64,000 bases of DNA from contig CAMAQH010000003.1 of the NCBI GenBank assembly GCA_945860295.1, positions 124,001 through 188,000 of the forward strand, written 5' to 3'. This stretch comes from Prosthecobacter debontii. GTDB taxonomy: Bacteria > Verrucomicrobiota > Verrucomicrobiia > Verrucomicrobiales > Verrucomicrobiaceae. Under the pieces are notes generated by a model. The model made no database searches and was not told the DNA's origin. It saw only the letters and a program-made list of their open reading frames with translations. Position numbers and translations under genes: made by a program. Below are positions 1-8,911 of this stretch, in pieces (position 1 is the stretch's first letter; each line of letters begins with the position of its first letter).

Positions 1-2182
1 ACTGAAACCACCCACGAATGCGATCGAACAACCCTGGGCCACTAGCACGCGGACGGCCATAACCCGATGGCGGCTGTGCGACCCTGCCTTGATGGGCGTT
101 GCAGAAATTCTGCGGCACGAGTTCATAGGGCAACTCGTCTTCATAGGCCGTGCCGCTGGCCTGGCAGACGGGGCTGGCGAGTTGGCTACTGAGGCGACAT
201 AAGGCCACTTTGGTGAGCGGTGGCTCGGTGCGCGGACCGGGCGGAATGTAGCCGAGTTCGACGGCTTTTTTCATCACATCTGCCCAGATCGGAATGGCGA
301 GTTTGCTGCCGTAACCTTCTTCAATGATGGTCTGTGGCTTGTCTAATCCGACCCAGACTCCACAGGTGACACGGTCAGTGTAGCCAGCGAACCAAGCGTC
401 TTTATAATCATTCGTCGTGCCGGTTTTGCCGCCGCCGATTTCTTTGAAACCATGCTGTGAGCGCACGCTAGCGGCGGTGCCTTTGTCCATCACTTGACCG
501 AGGATGCGGCGCATGATGTGAGCCACACCGGGGGTTGTGACTTCGACTTCGATGACGCCGGTGCTGTAGAGAATGTTGCCCGCTTTGTCGGTGATGCGGT
601 CGATGAGGAATGGGCGGCGGCGGACGCCTTCATTCGGGAAGATACTGAAGGCACTGGCCAGTTCTTTGGGATTGCCGCCGAGATTGCCGATGAACACCTG
701 CGGTGTGCGCTTGGCGTGCTCACCGATGCCAGCGTTCCCCAAAAGACCGAGCACGCGGTCGAGTCCGGCAAAATTACCGACGCGGATGGTCATCGTGTTA
801 CGGCTCTGCACGAGTCCGGTCATCAAAGTTTGTTGGCCGATGAATTTGCCGTCCGAGTTCTGTGGATTCCAGCCGGGATCTGAGCCTTCGATCTCGCCGG
901 ACCGGAGTGGCGCGTCGTCGATGAATGAGCCGGGCAGAAAGCCGCTGGCCACGGCTGCGGCATAGACAAAAGGCTTCACGGTGGAGCCGATCTGACGCTG
1001 GCCCAGGGTGGCTCGGTTGTATTTACTCTGACGGTAGTCGCGCCCGCCGACGAGCGCGAGAATGCCGCCCGTAGCATTGTCCATAACCATGAGCGCGCCT
1101 TGCAGATAGGGCGTGGAGGTTAGCTCTTGCGTGCCATCAAATGTTGGGTCAAAAGCAGCCTTCGTGGGGTGTTTATATCCGGGCAGTTTCTCCACCGCCG
1201 AGAGGCGCTTTTCGACCGCCGTTTCAGCGGTCGTCTGGAGTTCCTTGCTCAGCGTGGTGTACACGAGCATGCCGCCATCTTCGATCTCATGGACTTCAAG
1301 CAAGCGATCAAGATCACGCTTCACGGCATCCAGCGCGTAGTCGCCCTGGCTTTGAAACAAAGGCTGAGCGCGCAAGACGACATCGGCATAGCGCGCGGCG
1401 AGTTCCTCTTCCTTCGTGATGACTTTTGTTTGAAGCATGCGCTTGAGCACATCATCACGCTCCTTGGTCGCGCCTTCAAAATTGCGGAAAGGCGAGAAGC
1501 GCACGGGACTGCGGATGATGCCGGCAATCATCGCACTTTCACTAAGCGTGAGCTGACTGGCTGGCTTACCAAAGTACACTTGGCTAGCGCGCTGAATGCC
1601 ATAGAGTCCAGTGCCGAAAAAGATGCGATTCACATAGTGCTCTAGAATCTGGTCCTTGCTCCACATCTTCTCGATGCGACGCGCCAGCATCATCTCCAGC
1701 AGCTTGCGGTGGAAGGAGCGGTCGTTCAGATCTGGGTAGCTATTGCGAGCAAGCTGCATGGTAATCGTGCTCGCTCCCTGCACCACGCGGCGGTCTTTGA
1801 TGTTTCGCACAAAGGCACGCGCGACACCGATGTAGTCAATGCCGCTGTGCTGGTAAAAACGGCTGTCCTCACGGGCCAGCAGCGCCTTGATGAAATCTGG
1901 GGAGATTTGATTGAAGGGCACGACGATGCGGTTCTCGCCATGCATCCGACCCAGCAGCTCACCCTGAGCATCTATGACCATCGTGCGCTCAGGCATCCGA
2001 CCGAGCTGAGTGAGATCATACTTTTTCGCCATCTGCGAATAGATGCCGATGACGACAGCCACCGTCACAGCAGCAAGCAAACTGCAACTCATGAGGCCCG
2101 CCACGAGCACTCGCCGCCGCCAGCCCCAGCGAGAAATGTGCGGAGGTGGGCGGCGTGGTGCAGGGGCTTTAGAGGATTTCAT
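1..2182 (-). CDS. Class A penicillin-binding protein (PBP1A-type), C-terminus outside window
   Basis: Bifunctional peptidoglycan glycosyltransferase/transpeptidase acting at the outer face of the inner membrane. Reading the minus strand from the ATG at 2182 gives 727 residues without a stop, so the gene runs off the left edge. A basic, proline-rich cytoplasmic N-terminus is followed by one membrane segment (about residues 22-45). The GT51 domain shows EDSRFYQHSGID and GASTITMQLARN. The transpeptidase domain shows the SxxK motif STVK (Ser about 400, Lys 403) and the KTG box in GGGKTGTTND (Lys about 586). These two motifs were checked to be in the same frame as the start. The start was chosen because the membrane anchor follows it directly. 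Family assignment is secure; the exact PBP1 subtype is not. Confidence 0.93.
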   Translation of the reverse strand, partial: MKSSKAPAPRRPPPHISRWGWRRRVLVAGLMSCSLLAAVTVAVVIGIYSQMAKKYDLTQLGRMPERTMVIDAQGELLGRMHGENRIVVPFNQISPDFIKALLAREDSRFYQHSGIDYIGVARAFVRNIKDRRVVQGASTITMQLARNSYPDLNDRSFHRKLLEMMLARRIEKMWSKDQILEHYVNRIFFGTGLYGIQRASQVYFGKPASQLTLSESAMIAGIIRSPVRFSPFRNFEGATKERDDVLKRMLQTKVITKEEELAARYADVVLRAQPLFQSQGDYALDAVKRDLDRLLEVHEIEDGGMLVYTTLSKELQTTAETAVEKRLSAVEKLPGYKHPTKAAFDPTFDGTQELTSTPYLQGALMVMDNATGGILALVGGRDYRQSKYNRATLGQRQIGSTVKPFVYAAAVASGFLPGSFIDDAPLRSGEIEGSDPGWNPQNSDGKFIGQQTLMTGLVQSRNTMTIRVGNFAGLDRVLGLLGNAGIGEHAKRTPQVFIGNLGGNPKELASAFSIFPNEGVRRRPFLIDRITDKAGNILYSTGVIEVEVTTPGVAHIMRRILGQVMDKGTAASVRSQHGFKEIGGGKTGTTNDYKDAWFAGYTDRVTCGVWVGLDKPQTIIEEGYGSKLAIPIWADVMKKAVELGYIPPGPRTEPPLTKVALCRLSSQLASPVCQASGTAYEDELPYELVPQNFCNAHQGRVAQPPSGYGRPRASGPGLFDRIRGWFQ

Positions 2183-2393
2183 GGGCTGAACTCAGACGGC
2201 AAAGAGTGTGATTCCATTTCGCGCTTCCGCGATCAAAAGTGAAGGCTGAATGTCGAGTGACTTCCGCATCCTGACACAAAAGCTTCATCAGAGCTTACTC
2301 TTTGTTTCGAGTCACAATTGCATGTGTAAATGGTCATAAACACATGAAAATGAAAGCTTGGCTAGCGGCGACTTTTCCTGACAGACTAAGAAT

Positions 2394-3782
2394 ATGACTG
2401 ATAAATCAAAGATTCGCCTCCGCTGGAGGGTGCTGGCTATCGTTGGGGTGATCTGCCTATTCGGGCAGCTTCCCATTAAGGCCGATTGGCGAGCAGGAGC
2501 ATCTAGCATCGACATCACGCCCTCACATCCAGTGAGACTTAGCGGAAACAGCAGCCGCGCTCATGAGTCTGAAAACTCGGCCATGCCACTGCAAGCAAAG
2601 GCTCTGGCTCTGACCTGGAATTTAGATGCCCCAGTCGTGATGCTGACCGTGGACAGTGGCGGCATCCCGGCAGCCATGCGCACTGAAGTGCTGGCCCGAG
2701 TGGCGGCAGCGGGTTGGAAACTCGATGAGGCACGTTTCTCACTGCACTCCAGCCACACCCATGGCGCGCCGATGCTGCCCGGCGCACAACTTTTCCAATG
2801 GAGCGCTGAACTAACATCTGAGGAAAAAACCCACGCCGAAACTTATGCCAAGGAACTCACAATGAGGATGACCGAAGTGGTGATCAACGCCCTCAATGCA
2901 CAACAGCCTGCCAAGGTGGACTGGAGCATCGGCAAGGTGTGCTTTGCCCTGAATCATCGCCTCAAAATAGGCGGCCAATTCACCAACGGTTTTAATTTCG
3001 GTGGAGCCGAGGACCACTCACTTCCCGTGCTCCGCGTGACCGATCTAGCGGGCAAGTTACGCGTCATCTACAGCAGCTACGCCTGCCATTGCACCACCGT
3101 TGACCTTGGTGAGATTCACCCTGACTGGGCGGGCTATGCGCAAAAAGAATTGGAACTGCGATTCCCAAACATCGTGGCAATGACAGCAATCGGTTGCGGG
3201 GCGGATCAAAATCCCTATCCGCGCAACGAACTCAAATTTGCCAAGGGTCATGGCATCGAACTCGCCAAAGAAGCCGTGCGTCTGATTAACCTGCCCATGA
3301 AGCCTGTCACAGGTCCTGTTACCTGTGACGCTAAGAAAGTGATGCTGCCTTTTGATGCCATGCCGAATGTACAAGCCTGGCGTAAGCGTACGCTGGATAA
3401 GAATAACTGGACCGCCAAGCACGCCAACTTCTTTGTCGGTCAGGCTGAGAAGAATATAATCCCGGCGGCCTTGCCCTACACTGTCCAGGTTTGGGCCTTT
3501 GCCGACAGCCTGCTCACCATCAACCTACCCGGTGAGGTCGTGGTGGACTACAGCCTGCGTTTCAAAAAGCAGTTCGATCCGACCCGCGCCTGGGTCAACG
3601 CCTACACCAATGACATGCCATGTTTCATCCCCTCTCAGCGCGTCTGGGAAGAGGGCGGCTACGAGGCCGATCCTTCGACGAATTTCTTCCAACAGCCGAA
3701 CCGCTTTGCCGCCGGGATCGAAGACATCATCGCCAGCGCCGTGGCAGAACTCGTCCCCGCTGGCTACAAGAAGAAACGCTGA
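2394..3782 (+). CDS. Secreted neutral/alkaline ceramidase-like hydrolase
   Basis: 462-residue protein with a basic N-terminus and hydrophobic stretch (RVLAIVGVICLFGQLP), so probably exported. The mature part opens with AGASSIDITPSHPVRLSG, the usual beginning of the neutral ceramidase N-terminal domain family (PF04734). It also carries the expected metal-site patterns HSSHTHGAP, SYACHCTTV and the GCGADQNP segment. The protein is shorter than full neutral ceramidases (about 700 residues) and lacks the C-terminal immunoglobulin-like domain, as is common for bacterial family members of uncertain substrate. It may hydrolyse amide bonds in lipids or another amide; the sequence does not settle the substrate. 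It stands alone, 55 bp upstream of alr on the same strand. Confidence 0.8.
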   Translation: MTDKSKIRLRWRVLAIVGVICLFGQLPIKADWRAGASSIDITPSHPVRLSGNSSRAHESENSAMPLQAKALALTWNLDAPVVMLTVDSGGIPAAMRTEVLARVAAAGWKLDEARFSLHSSHTHGAPMLPGAQLFQWSAELTSEEKTHAETYAKELTMRMTEVVINALNAQQPAKVDWSIGKVCFALNHRLKIGGQFTNGFNFGGAEDHSLPVLRVTDLAGKLRVIYSSYACHCTTVDLGEIHPDWAGYAQKELELRFPNIVAMTAIGCGADQNPYPRNELKFAKGHGIELAKEAVRLINLPMKPVTGPVTCDAKKVMLPFDAMPNVQAWRKRTLDKNNWTAKHANFFVGQAEKNIIPAALPYTVQVWAFADSLLTINLPGEVVVDYSLRFKKQFDPTRAWVNAYTNDMPCFIPSQRVWEEGGYEADPSTNFFQQPNRFAAGIEDIIASAVAELVPAGYKKKR

Positions 3783-3837: not shown

Positions 3838-4965
3838 ATGACGCCTGCCACCATTTGCTCCGATGACGACGCCGTCCGCCCGACTCATGTCGAGGTGAAC
3901 CTGGGTCTGCTCGCGCAAAATTTGGCCGCCATCCGCTGCCATGTCGGCAGCGCTCAGGTGATGACCATCCTGAAAGCGAACGCCTACGGACATGGTCTCG
4001 TGCCTGTCGCTCATCACATGGTCCAATGTGGCGCGGACTACCTCGGTATCGCGTTCTTGGAGGAAGGCATCCTTTTGCGTCGTGAGGGCATCACCACACC
4101 GATCCTCGTGCTCGGCGGCATCGCCGGCGAGCAGATCCCGCTCTTCCTCAAACACGACCTCACCATCACCGCTCCATCGGTGGAAAAGCTGCGCCTCATC
4201 GACGAAGCCGCCGCTGCAATGGGCGTGAAAGCCCGCGTGCATCTGAAGATCGACACCGGCATGGAGCGCATCGGCATTCATTACTACAGCGCTGATCAAT
4301 TGTTGGAAGCCAGCCTGCAATGCAAGCACATCGAAGTAGAAGGTATCTACTCGCACTTTGCCAATGCTGATGCCGCCGAACTAAGCCATACACGGCTACA
4401 ACTAGAGCGCTTCCATGACGTGCTCTCGTTTTATGAAAAGCGCAGCCTGCCCGTGCCCCTGCGGCACATCGCCAACAGCGCTGGCCTACTGCAAATGACG
4501 GACAGCCACCTCGATCTCGTGCGACCAGGTATCCTGCTTTACGGCGTCTATCCGAGTGCTGAATGCGTCCGCAGCATCGCGGTCAAACCCGCGCTGACGT
4601 GGAAAAGCCGTGTCGCCTATTTCAAAGTCGTACAACCTGGTCATCCCGTCAGCTATGGCAGCACTTGGCAGAGTGTTCATCCCGTGCGCGTCGTCACCAT
4701 TCCTGTCGGCTATGGCGACGGTTATTTCCGTGCTTTGTCGAACAAGGCGCAAGTCAGCATCCGAGGTCAGCGCTACCCCGTCGTCGGTCGCGTGTGCATG
4801 GATGCACTCATGGTAAATCTCGAACAAGGCACCGCCTACAACGGTGATGAAGTCACGCTCCTCGGCGGCGACATCACGGCAGATGCAATGGCCAACTGGG
4901 CCGGCACTATTCCGTATGAAGTGCTAACCAACATCAACACTCGGGTGCCACGGGTCTATCTTTGA
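3838..4965 (+). CDS. alr: Alanine racemase
   Basis: Pyridoxal-phosphate enzyme that interconverts L- and D-alanine for peptidoglycan, cytoplasmic. At 375 residues it has normal length. The N-terminal barrel carries the cofactor lysine in MTILKANAYGHG (Lys 46). The region PVSYGSTW near residue 273 matches the segment holding the second catalytic tyrosine, followed by VGYGDGYFR and VCMDALMVNL, all family signatures. The ATG at 3838 lies 55 bp after the ceramidase-like gene. The stop is followed within 30 bp by a 47-bp hairpin (4994-5040) that also ends the converging ATPase gene and may act as a terminator here. Confidence 0.96.
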   Translation: MTPATICSDDDAVRPTHVEVNLGLLAQNLAAIRCHVGSAQVMTILKANAYGHGLVPVAHHMVQCGADYLGIAFLEEGILLRREGITTPILVLGGIAGEQIPLFLKHDLTITAPSVEKLRLIDEAAAAMGVKARVHLKIDTGMERIGIHYYSADQLLEASLQCKHIEVEGIYSHFANADAAELSHTRLQLERFHDVLSFYEKRSLPVPLRHIANSAGLLQMTDSHLDLVRPGILLYGVYPSAECVRSIAVKPALTWKSRVAYFKVVQPGHPVSYGSTWQSVHPVRVVTIPVGYGDGYFRALSNKAQVSIRGQRYPVVGRVCMDALMVNLEQGTAYNGDEVTLLGGDITADAMANWAGTIPYEVLTNINTRVPRVYL

Positions 4966-4993: not shown

Positions 4994-5040
4994 GATTTTC
5001 TTCCTATGACGCGAAAAAAACACGTTATAGGAAGAAAATC
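4994..5040. repeat. 47-bp hairpin element, 3' copy flanking the ATPase-nuclease gene
   Basis: Arms 4994-5011 (gattttcttcctatgacg) and 5023-5040 (cgttataggaagaaaatc) pair over 18 bp with one G/T-type mismatch. The 11-nt centre contains an A7 run on the + strand and can extend the stem by two pairs. The element overlaps the TGA stop (5041-5039) of the minus-strand gene by two bases. It is a direct repeat, in the same orientation, of the hairpin at 6446-6492. The two copies differ at only a few positions, and two of these are base-pair-preserving double changes. Confidence 0.9.
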
Positions 5041-6445
5041 ATCTCAGCATCTCAGATGCCTGAATGATGCGATAGAAGTAGCCGGAGGCTGGTATTTCCT
5101 TGGAAACAGGCCCATCCACGACCAGCACAGGCTGCACGGTCCGCCGTGGGTAAGCGGCGCGGAGCGCCTCCGCCTTGCGCTCCACCTCAGCAATCACGGC
5201 CTTTCCCAGCGGTGCCGTTTGGCGCTTCATCTCGCAGAGTGTGATCACTCCGTCTGCACGATCATAAGCGAGGTCGATCTGCACACCGATCAGCCCTTTG
5301 CGCGGTGAGCGAAACCACGGACCCGCTTCATAGTCGATGGCTTCAAACTTAAGCAGACGCGCCAGCAGTACTTGATGACGCAGACACACCAACTCAAACG
5401 CACGTCCCATCCATGAGCGAAAGGCACCGCTCTGCCGTAGTGAGATGAATATGTCCTTCTTGCCGCCTGCGCGGATTTGCTTCAGCCGAGTGCGCAGGAA
5501 AGCGTGATAAAAACTCATCCACGGATCACTCAGGTAATAGCGGATCAGTCGGGACTCGCTGCCTTTGTCAAAAGGGCTGTGGGAGGAGATGAAGCCCGCC
5601 GCCTCCAGATCATGCAGTCGCAGGCTAAGCATCCCGCCCTCTGCAATTTCAGCTTCGGCAGACAACTCACGGCGGCTCAGACCATAAGGCGAATCTGCCA
5701 ATGCACGGACGAGTCGTGGATACTCGGCATTGCGCCCGAAATGGCTCACGAAGATGCGATCATACTCCTCCACAAAGTAGCCATCCGCACGGAATGCCTC
5801 CTTCTCCATGCCGAGCACCATTGAAGGCGCGGCGGCGAGCAGTTCCAGATACTTTGGCACACCGCCTGTGTAGCATTGGGCATCCAGCACTTCTTGGAAT
5901 CCACGTCCACGCAGCAGACGTGCCGTTTCATGAAGCTGAAATCCCTGGAGGTGAATCACCAAGTCCGTGCGCCCATAAAAAGCGCTGGAGCGGATGACCT
6001 TGGTCGTCATAAAAGAAGCGATCGATCCGCACAGGATCAGGCTGCGGCCTGGAGCTCGTGAGAGATACTGCTCCCAGACCATCTTCAGAGTCGAAACAAG
6101 TTCCTGCCGGTAATTCGCCAGCCACTGGAACTCATCCAACACGATGACCATCGGTCGCTTTGCCAAAGCCGTGTCCAGAGCCATCAGCGCATCGTGCCAG
6201 GAGGTCGCAGTCGGCAATGGCCGACGAAGCTGGCGTGATGCCTGAGCCAGGAAGCTCTGGATCTGAGCCTGGGTGGGTTGGTTCTCCAATCCCTCAATGA
6301 AAATCACCAGCTCGCGCCCCACAGATTGCCTGATGAGCGAGGTCTTACCGATGCGCCGACGCCCGTAAATCACAGCAAGCCGAGGCTCACGAGCCTGGAT
6401 GGCCGTGCGTAAAGCCTGCAATTCTTCGTCTCTTCCGATGAACAT
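5039..6445 (-). CDS. AAA ATPase (archaeal-type ATPase_2) fused to a PD-(D/E)xK-like nuclease domain
   Basis: 468-residue protein of the ATPase family common in archaea (PF01637) with a DUF234-like C-terminus. Walker A is YGRRRIGKTSL (about 28-37) and Walker B is MVIVLDEFQWL (99-109, Asp104/Glu105). A sensor-like segment ILCGSIASFM follows (137-146), then a winged-helix-like stretch (about 245-305). The C-terminal domain shows FELVCLRH (Glu351), QIDLAYD (Asp391) and LCEMK (Glu405, Lys407), the layout of a PD-(D/E)xK nuclease fold. The open frame extends 32 codons further upstream, but that part is translated hairpin. The ATG at 6445 starts exactly at the hairpin edge with GGAAG 8 nt upstream, lying inside the hairpin arm. 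Function of the family is unknown; a role in DNA handling is inference. Confidence 0.88.
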   Translation of the reverse strand: MFIGRDEELQALRTAIQAREPRLAVIYGRRRIGKTSLIRQSVGRELVIFIEGLENQPTQAQIQSFLAQASRQLRRPLPTATSWHDALMALDTALAKRPMVIVLDEFQWLANYRQELVSTLKMVWEQYLSRAPGRSLILCGSIASFMTTKVIRSSAFYGRTDLVIHLQGFQLHETARLLRGRGFQEVLDAQCYTGGVPKYLELLAAAPSMVLGMEKEAFRADGYFVEEYDRIFVSHFGRNAEYPRLVRALADSPYGLSRRELSAEAEIAEGGMLSLRLHDLEAAGFISSHSPFDKGSESRLIRYYLSDPWMSFYHAFLRTRLKQIRAGGKKDIFISLRQSGAFRSWMGRAFELVCLRHQVLLARLLKFEAIDYEAGPWFRSPRKGLIGVQIDLAYDRADGVITLCEMKRQTAPLGKAVIAEVERKAEALRAAYPRRTVQPVLVVDGPVSKEIPASGYFYRIIQASEMLR

Positions 6446-6492
6446 GATATTCTTCCTATAACGCAAAAAAAATACGTTATAGGAAGAATATC
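6446..6492. repeat. 47-bp hairpin element, 5' copy flanking the ATPase-nuclease gene
   Basis: Perfect 18-bp inverted repeat: arms 6446-6463 (gatattcttcctataacg) and 6475-6492, with an 11-nt centre rich in A on the + strand. On the minus strand the 3' arm contains GGAAG just before the ATG at 6445, so in mRNA the likely ribosome-binding site would be inside the hairpin stem. The element is near-identical to 4994-5040 and in the same orientation. Together the two copies bound the gene to within 2 bp at both ends. Confidence 0.92.
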
Positions 6493-6592: not shown

Positions 6593-8911
6593 GTGATGCC
6601 GCCCGATCAACTCAGCCTATTTGCCAGCAATGCTCCTGCTCAAGTGCAGGTGCACGTGACTGGCGGAGCGCCCGGAGTCGCCCGCGTGCAGCTTGAAGGC
6701 TCGGCGGTCATGGAGCTGGACTACGCCATTCCGGAAAAACTTATCTCACGTCTGACCATCGGCACGCGTGTCATCGTGCCGCTGCAAAATCAGCGCCAAC
6801 CCGCCGTGGTCATGGAGATCCTCGACTCCTCACCGCATCAGCATCGGCTTAAAGAAATCGCTTCCATCGTCGGCTCACGGCCCATGTTCACGCCTGGCCT
6901 GCTCAAGCTCGCCGATTGGGTGTCCGAGTACTACATCGTGCCTGTGCATCGCGTGCTGCGCTCCATGCTCCCACAGGCCGTGCGGGACAAGCCGGAGACC
7001 TTTCTCACCGACAGCCATTTAAAGCTGACCAAAGAGCCATCGCCTGAAGTCATGGACAAGCTCCACAAGACCGCGCCCATGCAGGCCCGCATCCTGGAAA
7101 CAATGCGCGCCAATGGTGGTGAAGTCACGCTCAGTGATCTGCGCCGAGAACTGCCGCGCGCTGCCAGCATCATCAAGCCGCTTCTAAAGGCGGCCCTCAT
7201 CACCCGCAGCGAACTGCGTGTGGAGCGTGATCCCTTTCAAACCGAAGAGTTCCTGCCCAGCCAGCCGCTCACCATGACCGAAGAGCAACAGGTCGCCTAT
7301 GAGAGCGTGGTCAAAGCTCTTCACGCGCCGAACGAGGCGCGTCCGCTCTTGCTTCAAGGCGTCACTGGCAGCGGCAAAACTGAAGTGTATCTCCAGGCCA
7401 TCGCTGAAGTTCTCAAGCTCGGCAAAACCGCGCTCGTGCTCGTGCCTGAGATCAGTCTCACGCCGCAGACTATCGAGCGCTTCAAAGCGCGCTTCTCGGA
7501 GAAGAAAGATGCCATCGCCGTGCTCCACAGCCATCTCAGCGATGGCGAGCGCCACGACGAATGGTTCAAAGTGCAGGAAGGCCGCGCCGACATCGTCATC
7601 GGTGCACGCAGCGCCATCTTCGCACCGCTGGAGAATCTGGGACTGATCATTGTCGATGAAGAGCATGAGCCATCCTACAAACAGGAAGATGCTCCGCGCT
7701 ATCAAGCCCGCGATCTCGCCGTCGTGCGCGGCCACATCGAGCGCTGCCCCGTCCTGCTCGGGTCCGCCACACCCAGTCTTGAGTCCTTTCATAACGCCAC
7801 CACCGGTAAGTACGAACTGCTGCGCATGACCAAGCGCATGGATGGCAAATCCATGCCGCTCATCCGCATCGTGGACATGCGCTTGGAGCGGCGAAAAGGC
7901 ACTGGTGTCTCCGTCGCAAACGCAGGCATCCTCTCTGAGAAACTGCGCAATGCCATCACCTCACGTTTAGAGAAGCGCGAACAAACGATTCTATTTCTCA
8001 ACCGTCGTGGCTTTAATACCAGCCTCGCCTGCACGTCATGTGGCGAGGTCGTCCAGTGTCAAGACTGCGCCGTGCCGATGACGTTGCACAAGAAAGACAA
8101 CCGCCTCGTTTGCCACATCTGTGGTGCGCGCCGCATCCCTCCGACGAAGTGCCCCGCCTGCAACGATCCCGCGCTGAAATACGGTGGCTTCGGCACCGAG
8201 CGCGTCGAAGCCGCCGTGAAGGAAGTTTTTCCAAATGCTCGCATGGCGCGCGTGGACACCGACACCATGCAGCGGAAAAACCAACTGCGTGACACGCTCA
8301 AAGACTTCCGCGCGCAGAAGCTCGACATCCTCATCGGCACCCAGATGATCGCCAAAGGGCTCGACTTCCCTAACGTCACACTCGTCGGCGTACTCAATGC
8401 CGACACCGCGCTGAATCTGCCCGACTTCCGCGCCGCCGAGCGCACCACACAACTCCTCGTTCAAGTCGCTGGACGAGCCGGTCGCGGAGAGGTGAAAGGC
8501 GAGGTCTTCGTACAAACTTACGCGCCGCACAGTCCGTCAATCCAGTTCAGTCGGCACAATAATTTCGAAGGTTTCGTGCAGCAGGAGATGGAGCACCGTC
8601 AGGCCTTCAAGTATCCGCCCTATAGCCACATGGTTTTGATCAGCAGTCGCGGCAAACATGAAACGCAAGCAGAGTTCACACTGCAAACTCTGCACAAACG
8701 TCTCGCCACCAAACTCCCGCCCGGCACGCTCATGGGTGAACCATCTCCATCATCACTCACCAAAGCCCACGGCCAATTCCGCTTTCAGCTTTTGCTGCGT
8801 AGTGATCGCATTCGTCCGTTAGCGCGTCACATTCAGTCCGTCATCGAATCCATCACGCTGCCGCAAGACATCATCGTGACGTGGGACGTGGACCCTGTGA
8901 ATTTAGGTTGA
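6593..8911 (+). CDS. priA: Primosomal protein N' (replication restart helicase)
   Basis: 3'-to-5' DNA helicase that reloads the replisome at stalled forks. The 772-residue length is typical. The N-terminal DNA-binding region has the family pattern RLTIGTRVIVPL. Walker A is GVTGSGKTEVY (about 256-266), and the DEEH box is LIIVDEEHEPSYKQED (about 350). The zinc-binding cysteines are spread over about residues 479-525 (CTSCGEVVQCQDC, then CHICG and CPAC). The helicase C-terminal motifs IGTQMIAKGLDFPNVTLVG and QVAGRAGRG are also present. The gene ends with TGA at 8909-8911, directly adjacent to the stop of the converging gene with no spacer. It appears to be transcribed alone. Confidence 0.97.
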   Translation: MMPPDQLSLFASNAPAQVQVHVTGGAPGVARVQLEGSAVMELDYAIPEKLISRLTIGTRVIVPLQNQRQPAVVMEILDSSPHQHRLKEIASIVGSRPMFTPGLLKLADWVSEYYIVPVHRVLRSMLPQAVRDKPETFLTDSHLKLTKEPSPEVMDKLHKTAPMQARILETMRANGGEVTLSDLRRELPRAASIIKPLLKAALITRSELRVERDPFQTEEFLPSQPLTMTEEQQVAYESVVKALHAPNEARPLLLQGVTGSGKTEVYLQAIAEVLKLGKTALVLVPEISLTPQTIERFKARFSEKKDAIAVLHSHLSDGERHDEWFKVQEGRADIVIGARSAIFAPLENLGLIIVDEEHEPSYKQEDAPRYQARDLAVVRGHIERCPVLLGSATPSLESFHNATTGKYELLRMTKRMDGKSMPLIRIVDMRLERRKGTGVSVANAGILSEKLRNAITSRLEKREQTILFLNRRGFNTSLACTSCGEVVQCQDCAVPMTLHKKDNRLVCHICGARRIPPTKCPACNDPALKYGGFGTERVEAAVKEVFPNARMARVDTDTMQRKNQLRDTLKDFRAQKLDILIGTQMIAKGLDFPNVTLVGVLNADTALNLPDFRAAERTTQLLVQVAGRAGRGEVKGEVFVQTYAPHSPSIQFSRHNNFEGFVQQEMEHRQAFKYPPYSHMVLISSRGKHETQAEFTLQTLHKRLATKLPPGTLMGEPSPSSLTKAHGQFRFQLLLRSDRIRPLARHIQSVIESITLPQDIIVTWDVDPVNLG

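Follow-up and report, generated by a model that had tools for sequence, protein, structure and literature searches.

Why should a single gene be framed, almost to the nucleotide, by two near-identical hairpins? The question is raised by a window of 64,000 nt (the whole stretch of DNA analysed here, positions 124,001 to 188,000 of contig CAMAQH010000003.1 in the Prosthecobacter debontii assembly GCA_945860295.1), in which a gene encoding an ATPase with a C-terminal nuclease-type motif lies between an upstream (UP) and a downstream (DN) hairpin. An earlier note on this DNA had proposed that the arrangement could be a compact mobile or selfish unit or a self-regulated cassette. The delimitation that it described, one gene set within 2 bp between two 47-bp hairpins of the same orientation, is correct, with a gap of 0 nt between the UP hairpin and the ATG and an overlap of 2 nt between the DN hairpin and the stop codon. 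The observation is confirmed, and it points to a feature of a common family of genes for which our literature search showed no description: an Orc/STAND-like ATPase-nuclease gene seems to pass from one bacterium to another along with an inverted repeat (IR) that is private to it. The proposal of the earlier note is partly supported: relatives keep the unit and have it at differing sites, and sequence comparison supports mobility of the family. For the IR the alternatives are a role in movement or a role in autoregulation only.

Both hairpins stay with the gene at different sites

Among 189 related genomes the gene is patchy: 12 carry it at E ≤ 1e-60, ten of them (its own genome included) as a close copy of 64–100% identity and two as a distant one. 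A covariance model built from the hairpins, a search suggested in the earlier note, gave matches in 16 of the 189 genomes, mostly at the gene, and all ten genomes with a close copy have hairpins on both sides of it. Strong single hairpins away from a close gene occur in four genomes (G005, G010, G040 and G089; G and L numbers denote genomes and loci), and weak hits in G099 and G115 (E 0.006–0.007) were treated as chance. Neither hairpins at many unrelated places nor an ATPase universal among relatives, the two patterns that the earlier note had named as contrary to its proposal, was found. Within its own genome, the two places beside the gene are the only ones with the hairpin (at most 3 mismatches; 0 matches for a reversed-pattern control).

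The unit occupies six sites in these genomes, namely between alr and priA, behind hisS, and beside differing neighbours in G060, G057, G063 and G031. The site behind hisS is filled in G014, G026, G036 and G043, holds one hairpin in G010 and G040, and has none in G028 and G031. Here G010 shares its left and right flanks with G036 and G043, and G040 is alike on the right and shorter on the left. In hisS identity the filled G014 (92%) and G043 (94%) are further from G010 than the single-hairpin G040 (95%) and the hairpin-free G028 (99%), and loss of the gene plus one hairpin is therefore the simpler reading of the single hairpins; alternatively, they may represent a prior state, the unit having inserted into a standing hairpin. 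The single hairpin of G089 follows a fragment that matches residues 408–467 of the window protein (67%, E 2e-20), and no ATPase fragment was found beside those of G005, G010 and G040. The loop of the G005 hairpin (L085, ~1501–1551) resembles the DN type. Empty alr-priA sites, also called for earlier, are present in G021 and G035, where the two genes are adjacent with no hairpin between them. At the 3′ ends of alr the search motif was detected in 18 of 30 loci.

At the alr/priA site shared by G000 and G044 the ATPase proteins are 95% identical, with a fourfold-site identity of 62% versus 44–48% in alr and priA. We do not claim a recent transfer of the window copy, as strong purifying selection explains much of this pattern. 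Within the hisS clade fourfold-site identity is lower for the ATPase (61–64%) than for hisS (72–85%), so that the unit looks vertically inherited there after insertion.

A genome-wide scan for homologues found 13 relatives, and all eight with 63–95% identity (L007–L014) have hairpins at both ends. The stems vary jointly at the two ends (CTTCC in most, CAGCC in L010 and L014, TCTCC/GCTCC in L008), and UP-DN identity averages 0.86 within a locus (8 loci) versus 0.77–0.80 between loci. A single loop position reads A in UP (8/8) and G in DN (6/8), and the UP and DN loop signatures stay distinct across sites. From the distinct loops and the joint stem changes it follows that the two ends keep an identity of their own and accompany the gene, and nevertheless evolve jointly. 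In 23 aligned hairpins, 87.6% of the cells are paired and 30 changes are two-sided, compared with a mean of 10.6 in shuffled controls (0/500 shuffles reach 30) and 10–14 with slid partners; the count cannot be read as a probability, since these sequences share ancestry and one of them supplied the structure. The hairpin loop is asymmetric and often T-rich. In the more distant L015–L018 (45–51% identity) an upstream repeat with a CCTAT/ATAGG-like core is visible by eye. In L014, upstream of position 2645, a chimeric hairpin adjoins the ATG, with a CAGCC-type left arm and a GGAAG-type right arm; it preserves the Shine-Dalgarno sequence in the right arm, and a full CAGCC hairpin lies further upstream.

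Within the window, UP has 18/18 Watson-Crick pairs and DN 17/18 plus one mismatch, and the two copies are 85% identical across 55 nt. Four of the five differences between the 47-mers make up two compensatory changes (A-T/T-A close to the stem base and G-C/A-T inside the loop), whereas the remaining one replaces an A-T pair by a mismatch (G-T on the plus strand, A-C in the gene sense). The two pair-preserving differences reported earlier are thus both borne out, with a pair-breaking one to be added. As single-stranded DNA (ssDNA), both hairpins fold on either strand with z-scores of −7 to −11, and 0/200 shuffles were as stable for each of the four strands.

The gene product is by sequence a PDC-S27 protein

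The window protein matches Pfam ATPase_2 (PF01637) with 65 bits (cut-off 33.2) over about residues 2–202, followed by a winged helix and a C-terminal PD-(D/E)xK-type motif. ATPase_2 is matched by 34/34 family members (E ≤ 0.01), helix-turn-helix models by a few and DUF234 by 10/34 at E ≤ 0.01, the window protein not being among these ten. G28, R29, R30, R31, G33 and K34 of the Walker A stretch, E105, Q389, D391, E405 and K407 are invariant in all 34. An AlphaFold2 model has a mean pLDDT of 87.6 and a pTM of 0.84. A fold search limited to residues 1–344 returned the archaeal ATPases 2qen (Z 21.4) and 2fna (Z 20.4), NLR-type STAND proteins (Z ~17), archaeal Orc/Cdc6 (Z ~16) and TnsC (Z ~14–15); the nuclease fold is assigned from the motif and the published description. 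The window protein differs from archaeal Orc1/Cdc6 and STAND proteins in its extra nuclease-type motif, and there is no sign of a replication origin. TnsC was also matched by sequence (PDB, 3.9e-6), and a Pfam TniB match was below the cut-off (E 0.02). The PD-(D/E)xK type is that of TnsA too. The protein shares these features with TnsA-TnsC/TniB systems, but no TnsB-type transposase was found in the unit.

The PADLOC model of PDC-S27 (PDLC04984) matches this single-gene product over nearly its full length (1.5e-93; residues 2–444 of 468, profile positions 4–451 of 474), and the residues tested (Walker A, E105, QxD...ExK) are kept in the family of the window protein (34/34). The AAA ATPase and PD-(D/E)xK-like C-terminus read from the letters earlier are borne out by profile and motif, and, as a correction to the earlier note, the protein family is already a listed one. 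In the available part of the source, PDC-S27 is an ATPase fused to a PD-(D/E)xK domain that is reported to have been transferred between domains, and PDCs are single-gene candidates from 'guilt-by-embedding', with validation pending for most (PMC12988326). Judged from its sequence, the window protein is a member of this family, which is common but so far listed only as a phage-defence candidate and whose defence role is putative. Unlike what we describe here, that part of PMC12988326 gives no private repeats, unit boundaries or self-mobility, and the words inverted, hairpin and operator are absent from its main text; it also presents the PDC-S01 ATPases as likewise fused to a PD-(D/E)xK-type domain. 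A literature search that covered few subscription papers and no bioRxiv-only ones listed no paper recognisable as a description of private IRs or unit mobility of these genes.

Most of the genes have an upstream repeat of their own

To describe the repeats in the wider family, gapless IRs within 200 nt upstream were scored +1 per pair and −2 per mismatch, with loops of 3–25 nt and G-T pairs uncounted. The homologues were picked by similarity to the window protein and come mostly from this phylum and mostly from metagenome assemblies; some are closely related, and the counts are therefore not independent. Loci L262, L278 and L286 did not enter the analysis. A score of at least 11 was reached by 81 of 118 homologues (73/108 without the window clade), compared with 1/32 neighbouring genes, 13/142 genes in alr/hisS loci and 3/96 open reading frames (ORFs) from nine of the homologue-bearing genomes, the latter having been given their longest ATG start, possibly upstream of the true one. 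The repeats differ from gene to gene within a genome: three paralogues found in the same genome as the window gene (27–32% identity) have strong upstream IRs of other sequence, and in G431 all 19 copies examined (of 22 matches) have IRs scoring at least 10, nearly all different, with 2/171 pairs reaching the similarity threshold. Among ten records outside this set, for which 260 nt upstream were considered, those of Butyrivibrio, Segatella, Emticicia, Rhodothermus and Sinorhizobium scored at least 13 and that of Desulfosarcina 9, and no IR of at least 9 was found in the two haloarchaea sampled, Vescimonas and a Wolbachia phage gene. In a Wolbachia phage WO record (L270) a relative lies inside a head-gene module, with a tandem imperfect IR upstream by eye.

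The repeat is inherited together with the protein. Its arms are alike in 14/16 pairs above 85% protein identity and in 25/26 pairs at 70–85% (15 within the window clade, 11 outside), hence in 39/42 overall above 70%, and the proportion falls to 17% of 54 pairs at 60–70% and to 1–6% below. By sequence comparison, the repeat is therefore private to its gene, specific and co-inherited. A two-ended form with other sequences exists in a second clade (L139, L143, L150) and in L144. As far as sequences tell, only a few clades have two-ended units, and the general feature is one or more private upstream IRs.

DUF4143 (AAA_14-DUF4143) genes, to which we take PDC-S01 to be linked, are a separate family with weaker and less regular IRs (L287–L316, 28 of 30 loci usable; at least 11 upstream in 7/28, flanking direct repeats in 8/28). 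A phage origin of the window hairpin was considered and dropped, a degenerate pattern having given 0 exact matches among viral contigs. These contigs hold distant ATPase relatives at 17 loci, with IRs of at least 11 in 7/17, three of them near-identical; on one viral contig two different relatives (L331, L335) have different IRs.

Main homology ends near the unit in about half of the close pairs, and direct repeats flank some genes

The wider set contains 13 pairs of at least 85% protein identity. In seven of these, belonging to six families, the main stretch of homology stops at the unit, with differing flanks. The upstream edge lies at most 1 nt from the outer edge of the outermost shared IR in four of the six families (L201/L242, L159/L191, L234/L260, L235/L248) and inside that IR in L145/L168; in L252/L255 (one genome, 94% over 1482 nt) it is 73 nt upstream, and a strong repeat is absent. 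On the 3′ side, the edge falls at most 8 nt from the stop codon in five families and 13–25 nt inside the ORF in L252/L255. As expected of a transposon, the same unit is found at differing sites with unrelated flanks, both in these six families and at the six window-clade sites.

Comparison with hisS speaks for horizontal transfer. At fourfold sites the ATPases of G368, G431 and G434, from three genera, are 81–91% identical versus 52–56% for hisS; other pairs are mixed, with values of 89 versus 73% for G431/G478 and 61 versus 43% for G473/G431 among them. The ATPases of L188 and L256 are 99.4% identical in genomes assigned to different families (G499 and G309) with ~2.8 kb of homology, either by transfer of a larger piece or by shared contamination.

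Direct repeats flank 34/116 genes, compared with 0/50 hisS/alr genes and 1/96 ORFs of nine of the same genomes. Twelve of the 34 are the IR itself and 22 have another sequence. Their length ranges from ~28 to 205 nt and none was found at 82/116 loci, so that they do not constitute a target duplication of constant length. Three cases are clear. The unit of L143 (reverse-complement coordinates 1151–3178), with hairpins at both ends, sits between a decayed copy of the initial 195 nt of hsdM and a longer frame of hsdM (HsdM_N, 4e-12). L153 has a 28-nt repeat that overlaps its stop codon and forms the beginning of an hsdR-like frame, which is broken further on and matches HSDR_N only below the cut-off (0.0065), and in L154 a 31-nt repeat at the ATPase stop codon duplicates the 3′ end of the preceding reading frame. 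Direct repeats of 97–205 nt flank the ATPase genes of L171, L163, L178 and L147.

The repeat resembles a DNA site

Among 89 upstream IRs scoring at least 10 there are 64 stem mismatches, of which 15 are G-T and 14 A-C in the gene sense. With G-T about as frequent as A-C, nothing indicates RNA pairing in the transcribed strand, and this lack of a strand bias suggests that the repeat is recognised as DNA. The repeats accordingly resemble DNA sites more than maintained RNA folds, although the earlier note had suggested that the folded form is kept. The IRs occupy the ribosome-binding site or, judged by eye, a place directly before a −35-like box, and 68/89 finish 40–130 nt before the start. Tandem IRs share their arms and not their loops, and in several loci they stand by eye just ahead of a −35-like box. 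Residues 261–280 in the predicted winged helix best separate pairs with the same IR from pairs with different IRs, also without the window clade, and rank top in two overlapping sets. Taken together, the comparisons point to a duplex DNA site that would be bound and read by the gene's own protein.

In the window no sigma-70-type promoter was found. A terminator scan did not flag the window hairpins, which is a weak test, as the scan takes loops of 3–8 nt only, and Rfam returned no family at gathering score for them (best sub-threshold 23–25 bits versus 59–107 required).

A mobile unit or an operator

We tentatively prefer the reading, which we regard as close to evenly poised between right and wrong, that gene and repeat form a self-contained mobile unit whose protein reads the private repeat for regulation and movement. 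The Orc/Cdc6- and STAND-like ATPase with its winged helix and PD-(D/E)xK-type nuclease motif would use the winged helix to bind the gene-private IR, most likely as a dimer or a larger oligomer; the IR itself sits at the promoter or ribosome-binding region or before it. The unit that moves would comprise gene and IR and reach approximately from the outer IR edge to the stop codon, sometimes with direct repeats of the target DNA on either side. The Verrucomicrobiaceae clade of the window has a second IR copy at the stop codon, and losing the gene and one IR would leave a single hairpin. The bound IR would both regulate the gene and form the end, or attachment site, where the nuclease assists in movement. 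Binding, regulation, the exact unit ends and any part of the nuclease in movement are what we infer; the differing sites, the horizontal transfer and the single-hairpin sites come from the comparisons themselves.

A number of observations weigh against this reading. No movement was seen, nor any sign that the protein moves DNA, and Pfam found no recombinase or transposase domain. A strong upstream IR is lacking in 37/118 homologues and in the two haloarchaea, a downstream IR is not general (5/33 versus 5/30 controls), and the link between winged helix and IR type is weak in a matched comparison (24/38). Homology runs beyond the unit in 6/13 close pairs (three between G362 and G309; L188/L256; L196/L235; L236/L250). 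The flanks of the L145/L168 and L196/L235/L248 families also share shorter repeat pieces, and sharp homology edges can partly come from selection on IR, promoter and ORF alone. At fourfold sites the ATPases are only slightly more similar than hisS in G431/G309 (52 versus 44%), no more similar in G434/G478 (55 versus 55%) and less similar in G282/G473 (34 versus 42%), and the unit looks vertically inherited at some sites of the window clade. The twelve direct repeats that are the IR itself count here as well, as do eight of the other 22 that may be dispersed repeats (L174–L177, L196, L235, L248, L168). Finally, sampled copies within a genome are almost all divergent, unlike those of an active transposon: 7/340 sampled pairs reach 60% identity, the copies sampled including 19/22 matches in G431, 9/14 in G434, 11/17 in G478, 10/15 in G309 and 4/9 in G368.

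It is quite possible, although we lean away from it, that the IR is only the autoregulatory operator of a defence gene, which spreads by ordinary horizontal transfer and recombination in defence islands and has no self-movement. The placement of the often tandem IRs at the ribosome-binding site or (by eye) before a −35-like box, their shared arms and different loops, a symmetry of DNA and not RNA type, and the suggestive link of the winged helix to IR type all suit an operator. So do the match to the PDC-S27 model, the origin of PDC genes as single-gene 'guilt-by-embedding' candidates (available part of PMC12988326) and the homology beyond the unit in 6/13 close pairs, which fits transfer in larger pieces. 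An operator alone leaves unexplained the second IR at the stop codon, the single IRs at emptied sites, the edges near the stop codon in six families and the flanking target duplications. Movement as ssDNA, with the nuclease recognising the end hairpins as single strands, appears improbable. IS200/IS605 elements and REP-RAYT units also hold a gene between same-orientation hairpins, and their single hairpins can stand alone. The end hairpins of the window clade and of L139, L143, L150 and L144 share this orientation, the loop is asymmetric and often T-rich, and some sites have single hairpins. In contrast to those systems, no Y1 HUH transposase was found between the hairpins (over the cut-off Pfam gave ATPase families only and NCBIfam nothing), most family members have upstream IRs only, and that mechanism is not known to produce flanking target duplications. 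We consider it very unlikely that the structure acts at the RNA level, UP as a translational switch and DN as a terminator or mRNA stabiliser: an AGGAAG next to the ATG inside UP and the GGAAG retained on the Shine-Dalgarno side of the broken L014 hairpin would agree with it, but the mismatches show no G-U excess over A-C, most upstream IRs end well before the start and ahead of a −35-like box where one is visible, and no Rfam family reaches gathering score. A dispersed, REP-like host repeat flanking the gene by chance is barely conceivable; single hairpins at a few sites fit it, whereas the two places in the window's own genome, the 16/189 relatives with hairpins mostly at the gene and the different IRs of paralogues within one genome contradict it.

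A bolder form of the mobile-unit reading, which we think unlikely as a whole, is that PDC-S27 genes, perhaps PDC-S01 too, are a new class of transposase-free single-gene mobile elements and not primarily defence genes. Each element would have its own recognition code, the winged helix being matched to the private IR, the ATPase-nuclease would move the unit from IR outer edge to stop codon, and insertion would produce long target duplications that spare the neighbouring gene. Same-code copies would rarely share a genome, as if mutually exclusive; the pattern comes from the sampled part of the copies, and one 96% pair exists within G478. Were PDC-S27 genes mobile elements, their embedding in defence operons, the basis of their status as defence candidates, would be an insertion footprint. 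The private IRs make the choice between defence gene, autoregulated cargo and new mobile element testable. A repeat that is private to each gene and can be swapped offers a direct handle on what PDC-S27 proteins recognise, and the family provides a large natural set of protein-DNA specificity pairs, 19 of them, nearly all different, sampled in G431 alone.

Features of the window locus

The positions of the unit, its parts and its neighbours are given in Table 1. The likely Shine-Dalgarno sequence that had been placed in the 3′ arm of the UP hairpin is plausible by eye.

Table 1 Features of the ATPase-nuclease unit and its flanking genes (window positions).
Feature	Position	Strand	Remarks
ORF, 468 aa	5039..6445	minus	ATG 6443–6445, stop codon 5039–5041
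UP hairpin (upstream IR)	6446..6492	minus	47 nt, 18-bp arms, 11-nt loop; abuts ATG
DN hairpin (downstream IR)	4994..5040	minus	47 nt, orientation of UP; overlaps stop codon by 2 nt
AGGAAG, possible Shine-Dalgarno sequence	6452..6457	minus	In 3′ arm of UP hairpin, by eye
Walker A stretch GRRRIGKT, residues 28–35	6341..6364	minus	G28, R29, R30, R31, G33, K34 invariant in 34/34 members
Winged-helix stretch, residues ~241–290	5576..5725	minus	Proposed IR reader (suggestive only)
Nuclease-type motif QxD...ExK, residues 389–407	5225..5281	minus	Q389, D391, E405, K407 invariant in 34/34 members
alr (alanine racemase), flanking gene	3838..4965	plus	
priA, flanking gene	6593..8911	plus	

Elsewhere in the window, positions 2394–3782 have a weak match to neutral/alkaline ceramidase (Pfam E 1.2e-4, below the cut-off), and frames that by eye are similar to it stand beside the unit in G014, G026 and G063.

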